Of a DNA stretch of 64,000 nt, positions 12,864 through 56,113 are shown piece after piece. Every line of letters starts with the position of its first letter. The stretch's first letter is position 1. The translations under genes were made by a program, and so were the position numbers. Below the pieces are notes generated by a model that worked only from the letters and a program-made list of their open reading frames with translations, searched no databases and was not told where the DNA came from. Source of the stretch: Nitrospiraceae bacterium (GTDB lineage Bacteria; Nitrospirota; Nitrospiria; Nitrospirales; Nitrospiraceae); the NCBI GenBank assembly GCA_019637075.1, contig JAHBWI010000002.1:310001-374000 (forward strand), read 5' to 3'.

Positions 12864-13484
12864 ATGGTGACCAGAGATTCGACTTGCACCTGGAAGATGC
12901 TGCTCGGGGGCTTGATCATTGGAGTCGGGCTCGGTCTGCTCGTGGCTACGGAGCGTGCCGGCGCAGCGGAAGAAGGAGCGATGCTGATGGCAGCGAAGGC
13001 GGGAAGCATTTATGACTTCACGCTGAACGATATCGACGGCAAGCCCGTCTCGCTCAGCCAATATAAAGGGAAGGTCGTGATGCTGGTGAACACCGCCAGC
13101 TTCTGCGGGAATACGCCGCAGTATGCGGACCTTGAAAAGATGTACGAAACCTACAAGGCTCGCGGGCTCGAAATTCTCGCGTTTCCGGCCAACAACTTCG
13201 GGCAGCAGGAACCGGGGACGAACGAGGAGATCAAGGGCTTCTGCCTTACAAAATACAGCGTGGGGTTTTCCCTTTTCAGCAAGATCAGCGTGAAGGGCGC
13301 CGACAAGCACCCGCTCTATCGCTATCTCACGGAACAGAGCCCATTCCCCGGCGAGGTGGAATGGAACTTTCAGAAGTATCTCGTGGATCGGTCGGGAAAC
13401 GTCGTAGCCCGGTACCACCACGGAACCAAGCCTCTGGCTTCTGAAATCGTGAAGGATGTCGAACACTACCTCACGAAGAATTGA
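12864..13484 (+). CDS. exported glutathione peroxidase family protein
   Basis: A 206-residue thiol peroxidase. A signal-anchor or signal peptide (LLGGLIIGVGLGLLV, about 13-27) points to the periplasm. The catalytic Cys81 is in NTASFCGNTPQY, the Gln in FPANNFGQQEPG, and the Trp in the VEWNFQKYLVD motif. It is the Cys, not selenocysteine, form and probably works with thioredoxin-like donors. The ATG at 12864 has CAGGAGG immediately upstream, preferred over the TTG at 12849. Confidence 0.9.
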   Translation: MVTRDSTCTWKMLLGGLIIGVGLGLLVATERAGAAEEGAMLMAAKAGSIYDFTLNDIDGKPVSLSQYKGKVVMLVNTASFCGNTPQYADLEKMYETYKARGLEILAFPANNFGQQEPGTNEEIKGFCLTKYSVGFSLFSKISVKGADKHPLYRYLTEQSPFPGEVEWNFQKYLVDRSGNVVARYHHGTKPLASEIVKDVEHYLTKN

Positions 13485-13531
13485 CCCAGCCTCGACAAGA
13501 CCCCTTCCGCAGTCAGCGACTAGGCGCTACA

Positions 13532-13554
13532 GGGTGCGACCGAGAGTCGCACCC
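13532..13554. terminator. bidirectional terminator-like hairpin
   Basis: A perfect 9-bp stem GGGTGCGAC/GTCGCACCC with a 5-nt CGAGA loop, between convergent genes ending at 13484 and 13562. Confidence 0.65.
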
Positions 13555-13561
13555 CCTCCAC

Positions 13562-13837
13562 TCAAGTCTTCTTCACGAAACTAATGTGCCCTTGATATTC
13601 TTGGATGGCCGCGCCCAGCGCCGCCTTCCCCAGTGGAATGTTCGCGTCCAGCGCCTCTTCCACCTTTGGGTCGTCGATCACCACGTCATAACGATCCTGA
13701 ATATTTGTCCGCACCGCGGTCCCGTCCTTGAACGTTCGCGGCATGTAGATCTCCGTCCACACTTCTTTTTCGACCAGACAAACGTCCCGAAATCGTTCGT
13801 AGAGCAACGCCAGCTTTTCTGCATCCGTTTCCTTCAT
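13562..13837 (-). CDS. conserved hypothetical protein
   Basis: A 91-residue soluble protein, acidic and helical at the start (MKETDAEKLALLYERFRDVC) with a central strand region (DRYDVVIDDPKVEEAL). A single Cys is at about 20. I do not recognise a family. It stands alone between a terminator hairpin and an exported-protein gene. Confidence 0.7.
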   Translation of the reverse strand: MKETDAEKLALLYERFRDVCLVEKEVWTEIYMPRTFKDGTAVRTNIQDRYDVVIDDPKVEEALDANIPLGKAALGAAIQEYQGHISFVKKT

Positions 13838-13867
13838 AACGGTTACTCCCCGCGTCTACGCACCATC

Positions 13868-13884
13868 GGCGACCGAACGTCGCC
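13868..13884. terminator. hairpin downstream of exported hypothetical gene
   Basis: Stem GGCGAC/GTCGCC with a CGAAC loop, 35 nt after the end of the minus-strand gene at 13919. No T-run. Confidence 0.35.
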
Positions 13885-13918
13885 CATGAGGCACGTTAGA
13901 CCAGGGACCCGGCTCTTT

Positions 13919-14596
13919 TCAACGGGGCGTGGCGTCGGAAGGGGGCGAGGAAGGGGCCGGCTGATCACCGACGGAGAATCGCATGGTGCCGACCTGGTTG
14001 ACTGCGTGGAAGGGCTGCTGCCCCAGCGAGGTAATATAAATCTTCACCAAATAAGAGCCGACCGGCCACGCTTCGCCCGGTCGCTTCAGCTCCAAGAATC
14101 CATACCGCTCGTGGCCCGGCACTTCGAGCGAATCCCACACCAACGGGGAGGTACCGACTTTGCCGTCCGGTGCTATCGGAAACACTTGGGCCGCGAACTG
14201 AGCCGGATCCTCGAGCGGCGCCACTTCAAATACGATGAAGACTGCAGGCGCGTCTGCTGGAAATAAGCTGGCGCCAGGCTCGACCGGCTTGAGCCGCGGG
14301 TCCTGTGTAAACCACCCTTTGCGTCCGAACGTATCCCATTCAACGTCATAGCCTCGAGCCATCTTGATCCAGGTGAAGAGCGATTGGGGAATGCCCTTCT
14401 GCTGGAGGTCCATGGAGGGAGCTTCCGTCGGCTCGAATTCCGTCGTCGCCTGCTCCTTGGGCGCGAGGAGATCACGCGCCTCCGCCGACTGTGGGCCTAT
14501 CCATGCCAAGGCAGCCATTAAGCAGATGCCCCATGCGCCGGCGAGCCGACACCGGCACTGGCGACCCAATCGGTAACCGGAACGTGTTGATAGCAT
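13919..14596 (-). CDS. exported hypothetical protein
   Basis: A 225-residue protein with a basic N-terminus and a hydrophobic core (AGAWGICLMAALAWI), cleaved near SAEARD at about 40. The mature part contains a Trp/Tyr-rich central domain (GYDVEWDTFGRKGWFTQDP) and a beta-rich C-terminal part (PAVFIVFEVAPL, YLVKIYITSLG). The Pro/Ser tail is low complexity. Family unknown; probably periplasmic. Confidence 0.75.
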   Translation of the reverse strand: MLSTRSGYRLGRQCRCRLAGAWGICLMAALAWIGPQSAEARDLLAPKEQATTEFEPTEAPSMDLQQKGIPQSLFTWIKMARGYDVEWDTFGRKGWFTQDPRLKPVEPGASLFPADAPAVFIVFEVAPLEDPAQFAAQVFPIAPDGKVGTSPLVWDSLEVPGHERYGFLELKRPGEAWPVGSYLVKIYITSLGQQPFHAVNQVGTMRFSVGDQPAPSSPPSDATPR

Positions 14597-14677
14597 ACGA
14601 TCATCGTACCGACTTGTCCGGAAGGGTTCAACTCGTCGGCGGAAACGCCGGAAGAACGAGGCAAGGGGGGGTCTCTT

Positions 14678-14686
14678 TGATATAAT
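14678..14686 (+). promoter_or_regulatory. extended -10 promoter of the MFS gene
   Basis: TGATATAAT, a TGn-extended perfect -10 box, about 60 nt upstream of the MFS start. No clear -35, as is common for extended -10 promoters. Confidence 0.45.
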
Positions 14687-14746
14687 CCCAGATATTCCCG
14701 AAGCTGCCGCTCCGGGAGGCTTTTTCAGGATATTCTTCTGAGCTGC

Positions 14747-16156
14747 ATGAACGCCGCGCCCTCTCTGCCTGCAACAGATTTACAGACCGACTCCGAGCCC
14801 CCGACAGAATCGCCATACTCCGGCACCAAGACCTCGCAACGTGAACAAGGCCTTCGCGATGCCGCCTTCCAAGCAGCTGCCCAAGGCGGAGGAGAGAATT
14901 ATTTTTCGGCCTTCGCCCTGCTGTTGCACGCCTCTCCGTTTCAAATCGGCATCCTCTCTGCCCTACCGCAGCTCGTCGGGATAGTGTCGCAGCTTTCCTC
15001 GGTCAAGTTGCTCCAATACCTTCGAAAGCCGGAGCGCCTGGTCGTGTTCGGAGGCTGGGGGCAAGCCCTCTGTTGGCTTCCTCTCCTGGCGTTGCCGCTT
15101 CTCATACCATCGCGAGGCCCCTGGGTACTGATCGCGTGCGCCGTCCTGTATTTTGCCTTCGGCCATGCGACCGCACCGGCGTGGAATAGCCTGCTGATCG
15201 AGCTCACCGACACGGAAACCCGCGGAGCCTACTTTGCCCAGCGGGCCCGTATTACCGCGCTCGTCAGCTTTCTGGCGCTCGGCGCGGCGGGAACGATTCT
15301 GACCGTGGGACAGGCTTGGGGGGTGAGCTGGCTGGGATTCGTGCTGATCTTTCTCGGCGCGGCCTCGGCGCGGCTCGGTGCGACCCATTGCCAGGCGCTG
15401 GTTGCCGCACGGACAGCCGGCCACGGCATCGACGCACCTCACGGCTTCCGGCATTTTCTACTTCACCAGGCCACGCCGGATTTCCGCCGCTTCATGCTCT
15501 TTTCAGGGCTGGTCCATTGGGCCGTGCTGATCTCCGGCCCCTTTTTCGTGATCTACCTGCTGCGGGACCTGCATTGGACTTACCTGCACTATGCCGGGTG
15601 GATGGCGGCGAGCATTCTCGGACAGTTCACGACGCTGAAACCCTGGGGACAATTCGGAGATCGATACGGCAACAAGAACCTGCTACGCGTGACCGCCTTT
15701 GCGGTGCCGGTCTTGCCGATGGCCTACCTGGTGAGCGGACAGTACCCGTATTTATTGGGTGTCAATTTCTTCGGTGGGATCGTGTGGGCGGGACTATCGC
15801 TCGGTTTGCAGAACTATGTGTTTGATTCGCTTCGCCCCGAAGAACGCACAAGGGGCGTCGCACTGGCCAATGCGATGAACGCCATCGGCTGGGGACTCGG
15901 CGCCTTGACGGGCAGCTGGCTCGCCACAATCGTCCCTGCCCAGCTTCGGTTTGCCTTCTGGGACCTGACGCCGGCCTCGAACCTGCCCTTTGTATTTTTC
16001 ATTTCCGGGCTGCTGCGGCTCGCCATCGCGATCAGCATGTTGGGGCGGTTCGGTGAACCGCGCAAGATCGAGACCATGTCGCAGGGCGAACTGGTGAGAG
16101 AGCTCCCGCTCATCAAGCCTTTGATGGCGCGCTGGCCCTCCCGTTCACCCCGCTGA
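14747..16156 (+). CDS. MFS transporter
   Basis: A 469-residue integral membrane protein with about ten to twelve hydrophobic helices, for example ALLLHASPFQIGILSALPQL, LPLLALPLLIP and LLGVNFFGGIVWAGLSLGL. The GDRYGNKNLLR loop (about 306) matches the MFS A-motif. The first 45 residues are hydrophilic. The substrate cannot be told from sequence. It converges on the small lipoprotein gene. Confidence 0.88.
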   Translation: MNAAPSLPATDLQTDSEPPTESPYSGTKTSQREQGLRDAAFQAAAQGGGENYFSAFALLLHASPFQIGILSALPQLVGIVSQLSSVKLLQYLRKPERLVVFGGWGQALCWLPLLALPLLIPSRGPWVLIACAVLYFAFGHATAPAWNSLLIELTDTETRGAYFAQRARITALVSFLALGAAGTILTVGQAWGVSWLGFVLIFLGAASARLGATHCQALVAARTAGHGIDAPHGFRHFLLHQATPDFRRFMLFSGLVHWAVLISGPFFVIYLLRDLHWTYLHYAGWMAASILGQFTTLKPWGQFGDRYGNKNLLRVTAFAVPVLPMAYLVSGQYPYLLGVNFFGGIVWAGLSLGLQNYVFDSLRPEERTRGVALANAMNAIGWGLGALTGSWLATIVPAQLRFAFWDLTPASNLPFVFFISGLLRLAIAISMLGRFGEPRKIETMSQGELVRELPLIKPLMARWPSRSPR

Positions 16157-16159
16157 CGG

Positions 16160-16195
16160 ACGGCCGCCTCAGGGCAGGTCGGCTGCGAGGGCCGT
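16160..16195. terminator. bidirectional terminator-like hairpin
   Basis: ACGGC/GCCGT plus CCTC/GAGG with a 2-nt bulge, between the convergent MFS and lipoprotein genes. It touches the lipoprotein stop codon. Confidence 0.45.
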
Positions 16196-16398
16196 TACAT
16201 CCCAGCCGGTTTGTGGTCTCGCTCTTCCTGCTTTAACTTGTCGAACGCACGGTCGGCGTTCCCCTTCACCTGCTCCGGCGATGGTTGCGCCATCGGCTTG
16301 GGCTTATCGCTGGAACAGCCGACGGTCAGCATGACGGCAGCCACAATCCCGCAGACCGCTCCCGCTTTCCAGTTCGAACTCCACTGTGTCCGTATCAT
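16195..16398 (-). CDS. small lipoprotein
   Basis: A 67-residue product. A signal peptide with a GAVCGIVAAVMLTVGC lipobox places the acylated Cys at about 28. The mature part is short, charged and helical (SPEQVKGNADRAFDKLKQEE). The ATG at 16398 has GGGAGGA upstream, so the longer reading from 16476 is rejected. Function unknown. Confidence 0.75.
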   Translation of the reverse strand: MIRTQWSSNWKAGAVCGIVAAVMLTVGCSSDKPKPMAQPSPEQVKGNADRAFDKLKQEERDHKPAGM

Positions 16399-16606
16399 CC
16401 TGCATCCTCCCTGTCGATTCTTGGGCCGACGGACGCGCCGGCGCCGTATTATGGAGCAGCCACCCGAGACTCTCAACCGGAATCAGGATCTCGCTGCCGG
16501 TCCGTCCCATCAGGCCCTAACGTCCTGCTCCCGCACCGCGTTGACTGCCTCCGCCGGACCGGTTATTCTGCCATCCTGTCTCCAACGTAATCGAGGAAAG
16601 GATGCC

Positions 16607-17059
16607 ATGTCGTTACGAGATCGATTGACCGAAGACCTGAAACTCGCCATGAAGTCGAAGGACCAGCTCCGGATGGATGTCATTCGGATGATCAAGGCGG
16701 CGGTCCTGAACAAGGAGGTCGAGATCAAGAAGGATTTGGACGATGCCGAGATGAGCCGCATCATGACCACCCTGATCAAACAGCGGCGAGAGGCAGCCGA
16801 CCAATTCGACAAGGGTAACCGGGCCGATCTCGCGACAAAGGAACGTCAGGAGATCACAATCATCGAAGCCTATCTCCCGAAAGCCGTGTCGACCGATGAG
16901 GTGGGCGCGATCGTCAAGGCGGTCATCGCCGAAACCGGCGCCGCGTCGCTGAAAGACATGGGGCACGTCATGAAGGCCGTCATGGCGCGCCTGGCCGGGC
17001 AAACCGTGGACGGCAAGCTCGTCAGCGACCTCGTCAAATCCGCCCTCGCCGGCAAGTAA
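16607..17059 (+). CDS. yqeY: GatB/YqeY domain protein
   Basis: A 150-residue protein of the YqeY family, related to the tail domain of the GatB amidotransferase subunit. Typical segments are LRMDVIRMIKAAVLNKEVE and EAYLPKAVSTDEV, with a final LVSDLVKSALAGK. It may act in tRNA-dependent amidation; its role is unproven. AGGAAAGG lies before the ATG at 16607; the open frame extends upstream without family similarity. Confidence 0.92.
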   Translation: MSLRDRLTEDLKLAMKSKDQLRMDVIRMIKAAVLNKEVEIKKDLDDAEMSRIMTTLIKQRREAADQFDKGNRADLATKERQEITIIEAYLPKAVSTDEVGAIVKAVIAETGAASLKDMGHVMKAVMARLAGQTVDGKLVSDLVKSALAGK

Positions 17060-23811: not shown

Positions 23812-25212
23812 TCAGCTCTCGGGGCGCATTTCGACATCGAGCAACTTAATCTTCCGATGCAAATGGCTGCGCTCGATCTTGAGATCTTCCGCCGTGCGCG
23901 AGATGTTCCAATGGTGCTCTCGCAACTTGCGGGCAATGAACTCCTTCTCGAAGGCATTCCGGGCATCGCGCAAGGAATCGTATGGCTTGCTGAGCAAATT
24001 GCTCACCGGTGCAGCCCCAGCCGCCGGTTGAGCGGCCGGCAGGTTCGGCCTCACTTGCAACGCCAGCGAAGCGTGCCCCGACTCGATCACCGGCCCAGGA
24101 ACCATGATCATCAGCCGCTCGATCAGGTTGCGCAACTCTCGGATGTTGCCCGGCCATTCATAGTGGGTGAAGACCTCCATGGCCTCCGGCGACACCTGTT
24201 TGAGCTTCAGCCCCTGTTCCTCGGCATGCAGGTGGAGAAAATGCTTCACGAGGAGCGGAATGTCGTCTTTACGGTCACGCAGCGGCGGGACGATGATCGG
24301 TACGACGTTGAGCCGATAAAACAGGTCCTCGCGAAAGGCCCCCTTCTCGATTTCCTTCAATAAATCCTTATTCGACGCCGCAAGCACACGCACGTCGACC
24401 TTGATAAGCTTCGTCCCCCCCACCCGAGTGAACTGCTGTTCCTGCAGAGCACGAAGCACCTTGGCTTGCGTGTTGAGGCTCATATCGCCGATTTCGTCGA
24501 GAAACAGCGTGCCTCCGTCAGCCTGCTCGAACTGGCCGCGCTTCATGGTGGTAGCGCCGCTGAACGCCCCCTTCTCATGGCCAAAGAGTTCGCTCTCGAT
24601 CAAGGTTTCAGGAATCGCCGCGCAGTTGACGGCCACGAAGGGCCGGCTGGCCCGTGCGCTGTGTTGGTGTATCGCCCGAGCCACCAATTCCTTGCCGGTT
24701 CCGTTCTCTCCACCGATCAAGACGCGGCTGTTGGTCGGTCCGGCCGTTTCGATCAGCTGACGAAGCTGTTGCATCACCGGCGCCTGCCCGACAAGCTCGA
24801 ACTTCCCCTGCACCTTCGTGCGCAGCGTGCGATTTTCCTGCTCCAACCGGTGCTGCTCCAGCGCATGCTTAACCCGCAGGGTCACGTTCTCGAGCGAGAG
24901 CGGCTTTTCGATGTAGTCGTAGGCGCCGAGCTTGATGGCCTTCACGGCAGTCTCGATCGAGCCGTGCCCGGACATCATCATGACCTGGGTATACGGCGCG
25001 AGCTCTCGCACCCGACGCAGGGTTTCAAGACCGTCCATTTCCGGCATCCAAATGTCCAGCATCATAAGGTCCGGCGGATCGGAGGTACAGAGGCGCAGGG
25101 CTTCGACGCCGCTCTTGGCCACCGTAATGTCATAACCCTCATCCTCGAGAATGCTGCTCAAGGAGTTGAGAATCGAAACTTCATCGTCGACGATCAAAAT
25201 CGATGCAGACAT
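23812..25212 (-). CDS. ntrX: sigma-54-dependent response regulator (NtrX/NtrC-like)
   Basis: A 466-residue transcription activator. The receiver has phosphoacceptor Asp53 (LMMLDIWMPEMDG). The AAA+ domain has Walker A GENGTGKE, the sigma-54 loop ESELFGHEKGAFSGA (Ser instead of Thr in GAFTGA) and Walker B GGTLFLDEIGD. A Fis-type helix-turn-helix (WNISRTAEDLKIERSHLHRK) ends it. It lies 108 nt downstream of the NtrY-like kinase, its likely partner. The exact name is tentative. Confidence 0.93.
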   Translation of the reverse strand: MSASILIVDDEVSILNSLSSILEDEGYDITVAKSGVEALRLCTSDPPDLMMLDIWMPEMDGLETLRRVRELAPYTQVMMMSGHGSIETAVKAIKLGAYDYIEKPLSLENVTLRVKHALEQHRLEQENRTLRTKVQGKFELVGQAPVMQQLRQLIETAGPTNSRVLIGGENGTGKELVARAIHQHSARASRPFVAVNCAAIPETLIESELFGHEKGAFSGATTMKRGQFEQADGGTLFLDEIGDMSLNTQAKVLRALQEQQFTRVGGTKLIKVDVRVLAASNKDLLKEIEKGAFREDLFYRLNVVPIIVPPLRDRKDDIPLLVKHFLHLHAEEQGLKLKQVSPEAMEVFTHYEWPGNIRELRNLIERLMIMVPGPVIESGHASLALQVRPNLPAAQPAAGAAPVSNLLSKPYDSLRDARNAFEKEFIARKLREHHWNISRTAEDLKIERSHLHRKIKLLDVEMRPES

Positions 25213-53699: not shown

Positions 53700-53925
53700 G
53701 CCCAGTCTCTTCCCGGCAGAGAACCTCCCTTTCAATCCGCTCATAATTCCGCCGGATTGCACCACCTTCCCTCGCGCACCCCTGATTTGATGGGATCGCA
53801 GGGTTTCTCCTCCAGGCCACGGACCCTCTTGTACACATTTTCTCTCCGTCCGATTGAATCGAAATAATTTCCGTTCAAATTGGCTCGTAACGAAGGTTTC
53901 TGGCGACTCGAGTTTGTTTCACTTC

Positions 53926-53941
53926 TGGCACGTCGATTGCT
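53926..53941 (+). promoter_or_regulatory. sigma-54 promoter, perfect -24/-12
   Basis: TGGCACG-N4-TTGCT, an exact match to the sigma-54 consensus, with GG (53927-53928) and GC (53939-53940) separated by 10 nt. The start codon of the fibronectin-III gene is 37 nt downstream. The window has an NtrX/NtrC-like activator at 23812. Confidence 0.7.
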
Positions 53942-53977
53942 CAAATCAATTGGTGCGACTTTCTTGGAGGTTTCACC

Positions 53978-55201
53978 ATGCAATTCAGAAAAAGTCTGTT
54001 GGCGATTGTTGCTGCCGGTTGCTGCGCGAGTCTCGCAATTCAGACCATCCCGCAAGCGATGGCCGCCACCGCCGCCTCTGTGTCGCCGATTCAGGTGACG
54101 CCTCCAGCTGGACTATCCTTGACCGCCCGAAGCGGACAGACCGCCACCGGCACCCTCAGTCTTCGCAAAGACGGCACCGACCAGCACACCTATTTCATCA
54201 GCACGAATCAAAATTGGATCTGGATGAATCCGCCCTATGGGAGCACCCAGACGATCGCCTCGGAAACGGACCAAATTGTCGTGACTGCTCAAACTGCTGG
54301 GTTGCCGGTCGGCACCCACACAGGCGTGGTGTACATCGTCCAAAATGCACCGGACAACTCGACGAATATGCAGCGGATTCCCGTGACCCTGACGGTGACC
54401 GCCGGCACCACGACCGCGACACCCCCGCCGCCGCCAACCCCTACGGCAGTCACTCCTCCGCCTCCTGCGACGCCGCCGAGCCCGCCGCCGGCCCCGACGA
54501 CCGTCGCAGCCTCGCCGATCCAGGTCACGCCCGGCGGGCTCACCCTGTCGGCCCAGAGCGGGCAGACCGCCGTCGGCACCTTGAGTCTCAAGAAGACCGG
54601 CACCGATGCCCGCTCCTACTACATCAGCACGAACCAGCCCTGGATCTGGATGAATCCGCCCTACGGCAGCACCCAGACCATTACGACCGAAACGGACCAA
54701 CTGGTGGTCACGGCCCAAGCAGCCGGGCTCGCCGCCGGCACCTATAGCGGCGTCGTCTACCTGGCCGAGTCAGGCATCAACGGCTATAGCAACATGATCA
54801 GGGTGCCGGTCTCGCTTACCGTGACCGGCAGCGCCACGGCGGCCACTCCGCCGCCGCCCCCGCCGCCGCCCAGTACGGTGACTGCGCCGCCGCCTCCGCC
54901 TGTCTTGAGTTCGGTGGCAAGTACGCCGCCTCCGCCCCCACCGACGCCTGTCTCGACGACCGCGAGCGCCACGGTGTCATGGACGGCGAATACAGAATCA
55001 GATTTGGCCGGATATCGCGTCTACGTCGGGACATCGTCGGGAAACTATACGTTCAGAGGTCCATTTGAAGTCACCAGCGGGACCAGTCTGACGATTCCCA
55101 ACCTGCCCCTCGGAACGACCTATTTCTTCGCCGTGTCCGCGTATGATCGTTCCGGTAACGAAAGCGTCAAGTCGGTCGAATACAGCAAGAGCCTGTTCTA
55201 G
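53978..55201 (+). CDS. exported protein with two tandem repeats and a fibronectin-III domain
   Basis: A 407-residue protein. Signal peptide (LLAIVAAGCCASLAIQ, cleaved near AMAAT, about 29). Two near-identical ~105-residue domains (36-141 and 179-283) share SPIQVTP, STNQxWIWMNPPYGSTQTI and a final LTVT strand, resembling BACON-type Ig-like domains. Poly-Pro linkers separate them. A fibronectin-III domain ends the protein (about 325-407: TVSWTANTESDLAGYRVYVG). Probably a secreted or cell-surface binding protein. GGAGG precedes the ATG, and a sigma-54 site lies upstream. Confidence 0.88.
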   Translation: MQFRKSLLAIVAAGCCASLAIQTIPQAMAATAASVSPIQVTPPAGLSLTARSGQTATGTLSLRKDGTDQHTYFISTNQNWIWMNPPYGSTQTIASETDQIVVTAQTAGLPVGTHTGVVYIVQNAPDNSTNMQRIPVTLTVTAGTTTATPPPPPTPTAVTPPPPATPPSPPPAPTTVAASPIQVTPGGLTLSAQSGQTAVGTLSLKKTGTDARSYYISTNQPWIWMNPPYGSTQTITTETDQLVVTAQAAGLAAGTYSGVVYLAESGINGYSNMIRVPVSLTVTGSATAATPPPPPPPPSTVTAPPPPPVLSSVASTPPPPPPTPVSTTASATVSWTANTESDLAGYRVYVGTSSGNYTFRGPFEVTSGTSLTIPNLPLGTTYFFAVSAYDRSGNESVKSVEYSKSLF

Positions 55202-55240
55202 GCCAGCAGCAGAGCTAACAACCGTAGGCCGGTGCGCCAG

Positions 55241-55255
55241 TGGCGCCCGGCTTGC
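55241..55255 (+). promoter_or_regulatory. sigma-54-like promoter
   Basis: TGGCGC-N5-TTGC, one mismatch from TGGCAC-N5-TTGC, with GG and GC again 10 nt apart. It stands 70 nt before the second fibronectin-III gene. GC-rich context raises the chance of coincidence. Confidence 0.45.
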
Positions 55256-55324
55256 GGGAGAGCGGTCCGGACTTGCAGGCCATCACCGCCTGCAGCATCC
55301 ACCGTCCGCATCGGAGATTGCGCC

Positions 55325-56113
55325 ATGAAATACAGGGGCCGTTTCACGTCCTTGTTTCTTGTCATCCTCGGCGCCGCACTGTTCCCGATGCCGATCCCTA
55401 CGCAAGCCGACACCACCATTCCTCACGGCCACAGCCTGATCGTTCGGCCCAAACCACCCGCCACGCAGGAGGAACAGGCCTCACCGGCACAGGCTGGCGA
55501 CCGCAAAGACAAGAGCCAGCCAAAACTCTCGTTGTCCACCCCTCCCGCCTCGACGAATAAACTTACGGCCCTTCCTCGGACAGGAAAACCGATTCGCCTC
55601 TTGTCGATGGGATCACGGATACCCAACACCGGTGCCCCTCCGTCCCAGGACCGTGAGATAAAGATGATGACGGACACGTCGACGGAAACCGATACGCCAT
55701 CGGCGCGTGGCCGCGGCGCCGCCAGAAGTATTGTGCGCCGTGGGGATGAGGCGAACCAATTCTCGTTGCCCGTCGCTCCGAGTCCCCCGATTGTCCTGGT
55801 TCCTATGCACATGCCGGCTTCCGCTCCACCCGCGGCGAGTTCCCCAAGCACCCAGCCCCCGATGCCGACGACCGGCGCGGCGATACTCTCCTGGGCTGCT
55901 ACCGCCGATGGCAATCCGGCCGGATACAGAGTCTATGTCGGAACGACCCCTGGTCAGTATGGTTATGCGGGGCCGTTCGACGTCACCGGAGGGACGAGCT
56001 TCACGTTGAGCGATCTGCCGCTCGGCCACACCTATTACTTCGCCGTCTCAGCCTTTGACCAATGGGGAAACGAAAGCCCGAAGTCGGACGAAGTCAGCAA
56101 GAATATTTATTGA
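55325..56113 (+). CDS. exported fibronectin-III protein, paralogue of the preceding gene
   Basis: A 262-residue protein. Signal peptide (MKYRGRFTSLFLVILGAALF, cleaved after about 30). The middle is Pro/Ser/Thr-rich and disordered. The C-terminal domain (AILSWAATADGNPAGYRVYVG ending VSKNIY, shown in part) matches the FN3 domain of the upstream gene in length and motif order (GTTPGxYxYxGPFDV, YYFAVSAFDQWGNES). Both probably arose by duplication. The ATG at 55325 is chosen because the signal peptide starts there. Confidence 0.85.
   Translation: MKYRGRFTSLFLVILGAALFPMPIPTQADTTIPHGHSLIVRPKPPATQEEQASPAQAGDRKDKSQPKLSLSTPPASTNKLTALPRTGKPIRLLSMGSRIPNTGAPPSQDREIKMMTDTSTETDTPSARGRGAARSIVRRGDEANQFSLPVAPSPPIVLVPMHMPASAPPAASSPSTQPPMPTTGAAILSWAATADGNPAGYRVYVGTTPGQYGYAGPFDVTGGTSFTLSDLPLGHTYYFAVSAFDQWGNESPKSDEVSKNIY

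Follow-up and report, generated by a model that had tools for sequence, protein, structure and literature searches.

The 64-kb stretch of DNA analysed here, hereafter the window (G000:C2:310001-374000), belongs to the 4.06-Mb genome of a Nitrospiraceae bacterium, G000, whose relatives are Nitrospira. Two neighbouring genes for secreted proteins with C-terminal fibronectin type III (FN3) or FN3-like domains, gene A and P0002, are the subject of this report. Gene A is preceded by a sigma-54 (-24/-12) promoter and a candidate enhancer dyad and is followed by a conserved hairpin, and a sigma-54 activator is encoded elsewhere in the window (Table 1).

Table 1. Features of the gene A locus and of the activator candidates; positions are those of the window in all rows except that of L336
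Feature	Position	Strand	Basis or remark
NtrX/NtrC-like sigma-54 activator	23815..25212	-	In window; no specific link to FN3 genes
Candidate enhancer dyad, CGCAGGGTTTCTCCTCCA	53797..53814	.	Motif search; held-out test; block conserved in orthologues
Sigma-54 promoter, TGGCACGTCGATTGCT; GG 53927-53928, GC 53939-53940	53926..53941	+	Pattern, score, conservation
Ribosome-binding site, TTGGAGG	53964..53970	+	Sequence; GGAGG kept in orthologues
Gene A, secreted protein, 407 aa; two BACON-type domains, proline-rich linkers, C-terminal FN3	53978..55201	+	Profiles, model, synteny
Conserved hairpin 3' of gene A, 36 nt; holds the whole second site, 55241-55255	55222..55257	+	Fold, conservation
Second gene, P0002, secreted 262-aa protein; C-terminal FN3-like domain	55325..56113	+	Without own sigma-54 promoter or dyad
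L336 operon: kinase; lipoprotein-like protein; regulator	15347-16822; 14580-15350; 13159-14571	all -	Order as GlrR/QseF

The gene A promoter and its relatives in the Nitrospiraceae

A sequence-only reading of this DNA had placed an exact TGGCACG-N4-TTGC site 37 nt before one of the two genes, and this was confirmed. The site, TGGCACGTCGATTGC at 53926-53940, reads TGGCACG-TCGA-TTGC and matches the consensus of -24/-12 sigma-54 promoters; the ATG at 53978 follows after 37 nt, and GG-N10-GC stands in a TGGCAC/TTGCW context at 53926-53941. It is the sole zero-mismatch match in the window, and its -24/-12 score is the highest on either strand of the 64 kb; the backward control contained no site at that score. 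In the whole genome, which was scanned by pattern search and in selected stretches only, TGGCAC-N5-TTGCW occurs 12 times vs once for the reversed pattern, and most of these exact sites lie ~30-110 nt ahead of plausible start codons. BACON/FN3 paralogues are found downstream of two of the 12, and a third paralogue has TGGTATTCCGGTTGCT. A looser pattern, TGGYRY-N5-TTGCW, was tried for a regulon list and discarded as too noisy (43 sites vs 29 in the control). The genome encodes a single rpoN (one Sigma54_DBD protein) and ~31 strong Sigma54_activat proteins.

Exact sigma-54 sites also precede genes read by eye as lpxC (L011, G000:C6:172661), fliL (L009, G000:C5:27412), a formate/nitrite-transporter-type gene (L012, G000:C11:10652) and a universal stress protein gene (L006, G000:C2:658299). 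Sigma-54 control of lpxC would be unusual. An exact sigma-54 promoter was also found for each of L004 (G000:C2:262649) and L013 (G000:C15:6447), two members of a small-protein family with the motif DEKKAAEAAFRGEPFNP.

The gene A locus is syntenic (hydrolase, gene A, FGE-sulfatase, methyltransferase), and the -24/-12 element is present at -50 to -53 in 8/8 orthologues of gene A from the sister genus Nitrospira, including Ca. N. defluvii. Loss of the GG and GC in relatives that keep the gene had been set beforehand as a refutation; at the first site, both were found to be retained. The paralogue at G000:C1, which has three BACON-type repeats and an FN3 domain, carries TGGCACAACAGTTGCT at -74, and clade B, composed of this paralogue and eight orthologues, has kept the site in 9/9 members at -72 to -74. 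A -24/-12 site likewise precedes the third paralogue (G000:C2:416437), whose orthologues have theirs at ~-115 to -122. Named Nitrospira genomes, including Ca. N. defluvii FP929003, display the site in all 31 A or B loci that reach the upstream region, loci that overlap with genomes of the other sets and are not independent of them. The third paralogue itself (L103, G000:C2:414500-418500) is seemingly frameshifted; it retains the promoter and the upstream dyad, and intact copies occur in relatives.

An initial scan of the genome collection with gene A alone gave no matches, and the relatives came from a scan with an alignment. Homologues with the common FN3 tail occur in 49/60 genomes of the family. 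Distant Nitrospiraceae FN3 homologues were found to have an upstream -24/-12 site in 26/50 cases vs 1/50 in the backward control, and a held-out, fresh set of FN3 homologues gave 16/26 vs 1/26; the 26/50 and 16/26 are probably lower bounds, because some starts were mis-called.

An upstream dyad and candidate activators

For 32 non-redundant promoters, the upstream 200 nt were subjected to an unsupervised motif search. At palindromic width 18 this returned TGtAGGcnnnngCCTaCA, with a likelihood of 82, where shuffled sequences gave 29-37; a palindromic width of 17 and a width of 12 came out just slightly above shuffles and were dropped. The family dyad has the consensus TGnAGG-N6-CCTnCA and a length of 18 bp. 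It lies ~90-155 nt ahead of the -24 element in gene A, its orthologues and many other family members, and it coincides with a block whose conservation in clade A had already been noted. When scored with a model made without any clade A members, the dyad of the window reaches 12.9, the best value of the 64 kb. In the held-out set, 8/16 promoters score >= 12.9, vs 12.2 for the 99.9th percentile of random window segments. The 18-bp dyad looks like an enhancer that would be bound by an activator. It was found at 3/52 sigma-54-like sites of the genome; two of these belong to FN3 genes, gene A and the third paralogue, and one to a gene for a small CxxC protein. This last gene (L003, G000:C2:10328; MTCTRCEGLM...; dyad TGTAGGTCCATCCATGCA) is the one non-FN3 gene of the genome in which the dyad was found together with a sigma-54 site.

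The 18-bp dyad is absent from clade B, where another conserved dyad, CGGGATTCTCACCGAACTCCGCTGAGCGATTCCCG, precedes the -24/-12 element (L102, L104, L107, L109, L112, L114, L116, L118, L120). One enhancer therefore does not serve all of the promoters, and the difference suggests at least two activators, or two types of site. Nor was the 18-bp dyad found at the promoters of another group of long BACON-FN3 proteins, including one promoter beside a GlrR-like operon. This second group (L128, L132, L139, L140, L144, L145, L164, L167, L174) has promoters of the form GGCAY-N4-CTTGCT, mostly with AGG or GGG at -24, and CACAAGTGATTGATTCCCGT lies upstream in both L128 and L132.

An NtrX/NtrC-like activator had been noticed in the window by the sequence-only reading. 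The gene is indeed present, and the activator role implied for it found no backing: it is one of the ~31, with nothing tying it to these genes. Thirty activators of the genome were compared with four FN3-positive genomes and one FN3-negative genome (G009), and the NtrX-like regulator has orthologues in all five, the FN3-negative one included. A GlrR/QseF-like regulator of 470 aa, P0003, at G000:C5:46161-47570, whose gene neighbours code for a sensor kinase and a lipoprotein, is the only one of the 30 that is present in all four FN3-positive genomes and absent from G009. GlrR-like regulators were found in 42/49 FN3-positive vs 3/11 FN3-negative genomes (Fisher p 0.0003), an association confounded by kinship and genome size/reduction. 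The operon runs in the order membrane protein, HAMP kinase, small lipoprotein-like protein, regulator. The lipoprotein-like protein gave no QseG family match, and the best NCBIfam model for the regulator is GlrR (NF011695), at 507.3 bits vs a cut-off of 763 and so below it. G049 has a strong dyad, and a GlrR-like gene sought in that genome was not found; in G058 a GlrR-like operon adjoins a BACON-FN3 gene that has a sigma-54 site and a promoter without the dyad.

We put somewhat better than even odds on an activator that is not GlrR-like, be it a universal one (the NtrX-like regulator of the window among them), a PrsR-like one, or several that share the work. All five test genomes have seven further activators in common, as such a reading would have it, but universal activators are thereby also present where FN3 genes are absent (G009). 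A PrsR-like regulator falls just below the cut-off in G000 and in most sister-genus genomes; however, no PrsR (TIGR02915) passes it in G000, where the best score is 461.8 vs 502.6, and the regulator is missing or divergent in the dyad-bearing G036 and G015, and PrsR was largely rejected as the activator on these grounds. The other upstream sequences of clade B and of the second gene group also favor activators beyond a GlrR-like one. The GlrR/QseF-like regulator at G000:C5:46161-47570 is proposed tentatively, at somewhat less than even odds, as the best single candidate for the activator of the FN3 genes.

The secreted proteins and the second gene

A signal peptide was identified by eye in gene A, which indicates secretion. 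Pfam fn3 (PF00041) is passed by gene A (31.0 vs a cut-off of 25) and narrowly missed by P0002 (23.5). The two proteins share the FN3 C-terminus at 53% identity, so the earlier description of two paralogous FN3 proteins stands for that shared C-terminal domain. The BACON assignment of gene A (PF19190; two BACON_2 stretches) is marginal, at 25.2 vs 25; a homologue with four BACON stretches and an FN3 domain reaches 89.9 bits for BACON. The structure model of gene A (pLDDT 73, pTM 0.42) contains three beta-sandwiches, those of BACON type at about 44-141 and 181-283, and the family as a whole is predicted to consist of secreted proteins of bead-on-a-string build.

These proteins may be adhesin-like, with a function in adhesion or the matrix. 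BACON and FN3 domains are common companions of carbohydrate-active enzymes, and a chitinase FN3 domain is among the PDB entries nearest in sequence to the FN3 part, as might be expected if the proteins were instead extracellular carbohydrate-binding, nutrient-scavenging or outer-surface assembly factors. We consider this rather unlikely: Pfam found no catalytic domain in gene A, the repeated beta-sandwiches and proline-rich linkers resemble spacers or scaffolds, and the biofilm scaffold RbmA is among the Foldseek matches, all of which are generic matches to Ig/FN3 strings.

A second sigma-54 promoter had been read before P0002. The sequence is as described, with TGGCGC-CCGGC-TTGC at 55241-55255, ~69-70 nt before the ATG at 55325, and GG-N10-GC in place; the promoter role was rejected. 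The site has a chance-level -24/-12 score and no A/T after TTGC, and it forms the 3' arm of a hairpin that nine genomes have kept; the neighbour gene is missing from eight of these. The 124 nt between gene A and P0002 fold with z = -2.85, and the same hairpin occurs shortly after the gene A stop codon in eight sister-genus genomes. Across the alignment of nine sequences, 93% of cells pair vs 27-43% for slid partners, and one C-G to U-A exchange is common to four of the nine. The inspected sister-genus loci have no second FN3 gene at this place: the next gene after gene A is the FGE-sulfatase gene, in convergent orientation. Because the hairpin is kept after gene A in genomes without the second gene, it belongs to the 3' end of gene A.

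The GG-N10-GC, the plausible distance to the start codon and the FN3 tail common to both proteins would fit two genes with sigma-54 promoters of their own, the 55241 site being a true promoter that happens to sit in a hairpin. This is very improbable, given its score, the missing A/T, the lack of an 18-bp dyad upstream of the second gene, and the CTTAC or CTCAC that replaces CTTGC in the hairpin arm of other genomes. The spacer (55202-55325), examined as a genomic repeat element, is single copy in the genome, and Rfam returned two tRNAs only for the window. P0002 looks like a local tandem addition and is perhaps expressed by read-through.

A candidate regulon and its relation to known systems

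We propose that gene A belongs to a Nitrospiraceae-wide sigma-54 regulon of secreted BACON/FN3 proteins. The probability of this reading is about 0.82, a figure that covers the sigma-54 regulon itself and not the GlrR-like activator or the matrix role. The earlier suggestion that sigma-54 controls a small group of secreted FN3/Ig-like proteins is strongly upheld as a prediction from sequence, and on a much wider scale than the sequence-only reading could show, with three members of the family in the genome and many across the Nitrospiraceae. That the -24/-12 likeness reflects common ancestry of the flanking DNA and not a selected promoter is hardly credible, since the sister-genus orthologues are related but such sites are seen again and again, in clades A, B and C as well as in distant homologues with differing flanks, and within the orthologue alignment of clade A the promoter site stays constant while adjacent bases change.

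In the proposed regulon, RpoN-polymerase would wait closed at the -24/-12 promoter until a phosphorylated AAA+ response regulator bound the dyad, looped and opened the promoter. The BACON/FN3 proteins would then be made only on a signal and would have an extracellular part in surface or matrix contacts. The same sigma-54 promoter and paired activator site recur, and therefore cells probably switch on surface or matrix proteins on command. A more speculative possibility is that an envelope-sensing, GlrR-like three-component system, via sigma-54 and TGnAGG-N6-CCTnCA, switches on a BACON/FN3 matrix protein set Nitrospiraceae-wide, as a candidate planktonic-to-aggregate switch of nitrifiers. The open-access literature on FN3/BACON with sigma-54 in Nitrospira yielded no paper describing such a regulon.

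Nitrospira are the dominant nitrite oxidisers and, as comammox organisms, full nitrifiers of sewage works and drinking-water filters, habitats in which they occur in flocs and biofilms. We know of no regulator or matrix protein that is established for the biofilm switch of N. moscoviensis. A reactor culture of this species turned to biofilm, and reversal was not possible (PMC6606698). A defined promoter, an enhancer and a candidate regulator for a secreted protein family offer a concrete, testable entry.

The PEP-CTERM / PrsK-PrsR sigma-54 regulon of Proteobacteria (Haft 2006, PMC1569441), for which RpoN dependence has been demonstrated in one gene, pepA (PMC9850573), resembles the present family in several respects. 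Both involve secreted proteins encoded mostly by single genes behind long intergenic regions, a -24/-12 promoter with an upstream motif, a proposed response-regulator activator, and environmental floc or biofilm formers. The BACON/FN3 family described here is of Nitrospirota, however, and PEP-CTERM motif 1 is 17 nt long, ends in TTTACA and lies ~63 nt before the promoter (PMC1569441), whereas the 18-bp dyad ends in CCTnCA at ~90-155 nt. No Pfam match to a PEP-CTERM sorting signal was obtained for gene A at E<=1 (C-terminus SVEYSKSLF). Membership of the PEP-CTERM/PrsR regulon was rejected on the missing tail, the lack of a PrsR over the cut-off and the different upstream motif. PrsR is above the cut-off in 7/60 family genomes. 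Seven Nitrospiraceae genomes (L234-L240) have PrsR well above the curated cut-off, at 574-627 bits, and PEP-CTERM-type regulation may therefore exist patchily in Nitrospirota.

GlrR/QseF is a kinase-lipoprotein-regulator system for the envelope (PMC6075780), and the enterobacterial regulator binds TGTC-N10-GACA, an 18-bp dyad (PMC8745638). The likeness lies in a kinase, a small envelope lipoprotein (lipoprotein-like here) and a GlrR-type activator in one operon, an 18-bp dyad as target, and sigma-54 promoters of envelope functions. The half-sites differ from TGnAGG-N6-CCTnCA, and GlrR/QseF targets glmY/rpoE, whereas the link here is to secreted proteins and is statistical. RbmA, the tandem FN3 biofilm scaffold of Vibrio cholerae, is likewise a secreted tandem beta-sandwich protein, but the fold similarity is generic, at about 10% identity, and RbmA is without BACON domains.

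Sigma-54 has been proposed as a governor of the bacterial exterior and of cell-surface functions (Francke 2011, PMC3162934). The lpxC and fliL sites of this genome fit that proposal. Its list comprises exopolysaccharide, flagella, lipids, LPS, lipoproteins and peptidoglycan, with fibronectin domains not mentioned (PMC3162934), and the regulon put forward here would carry the idea of sigma-54 control over the cell exterior into a further phylum and a further family of proteins.
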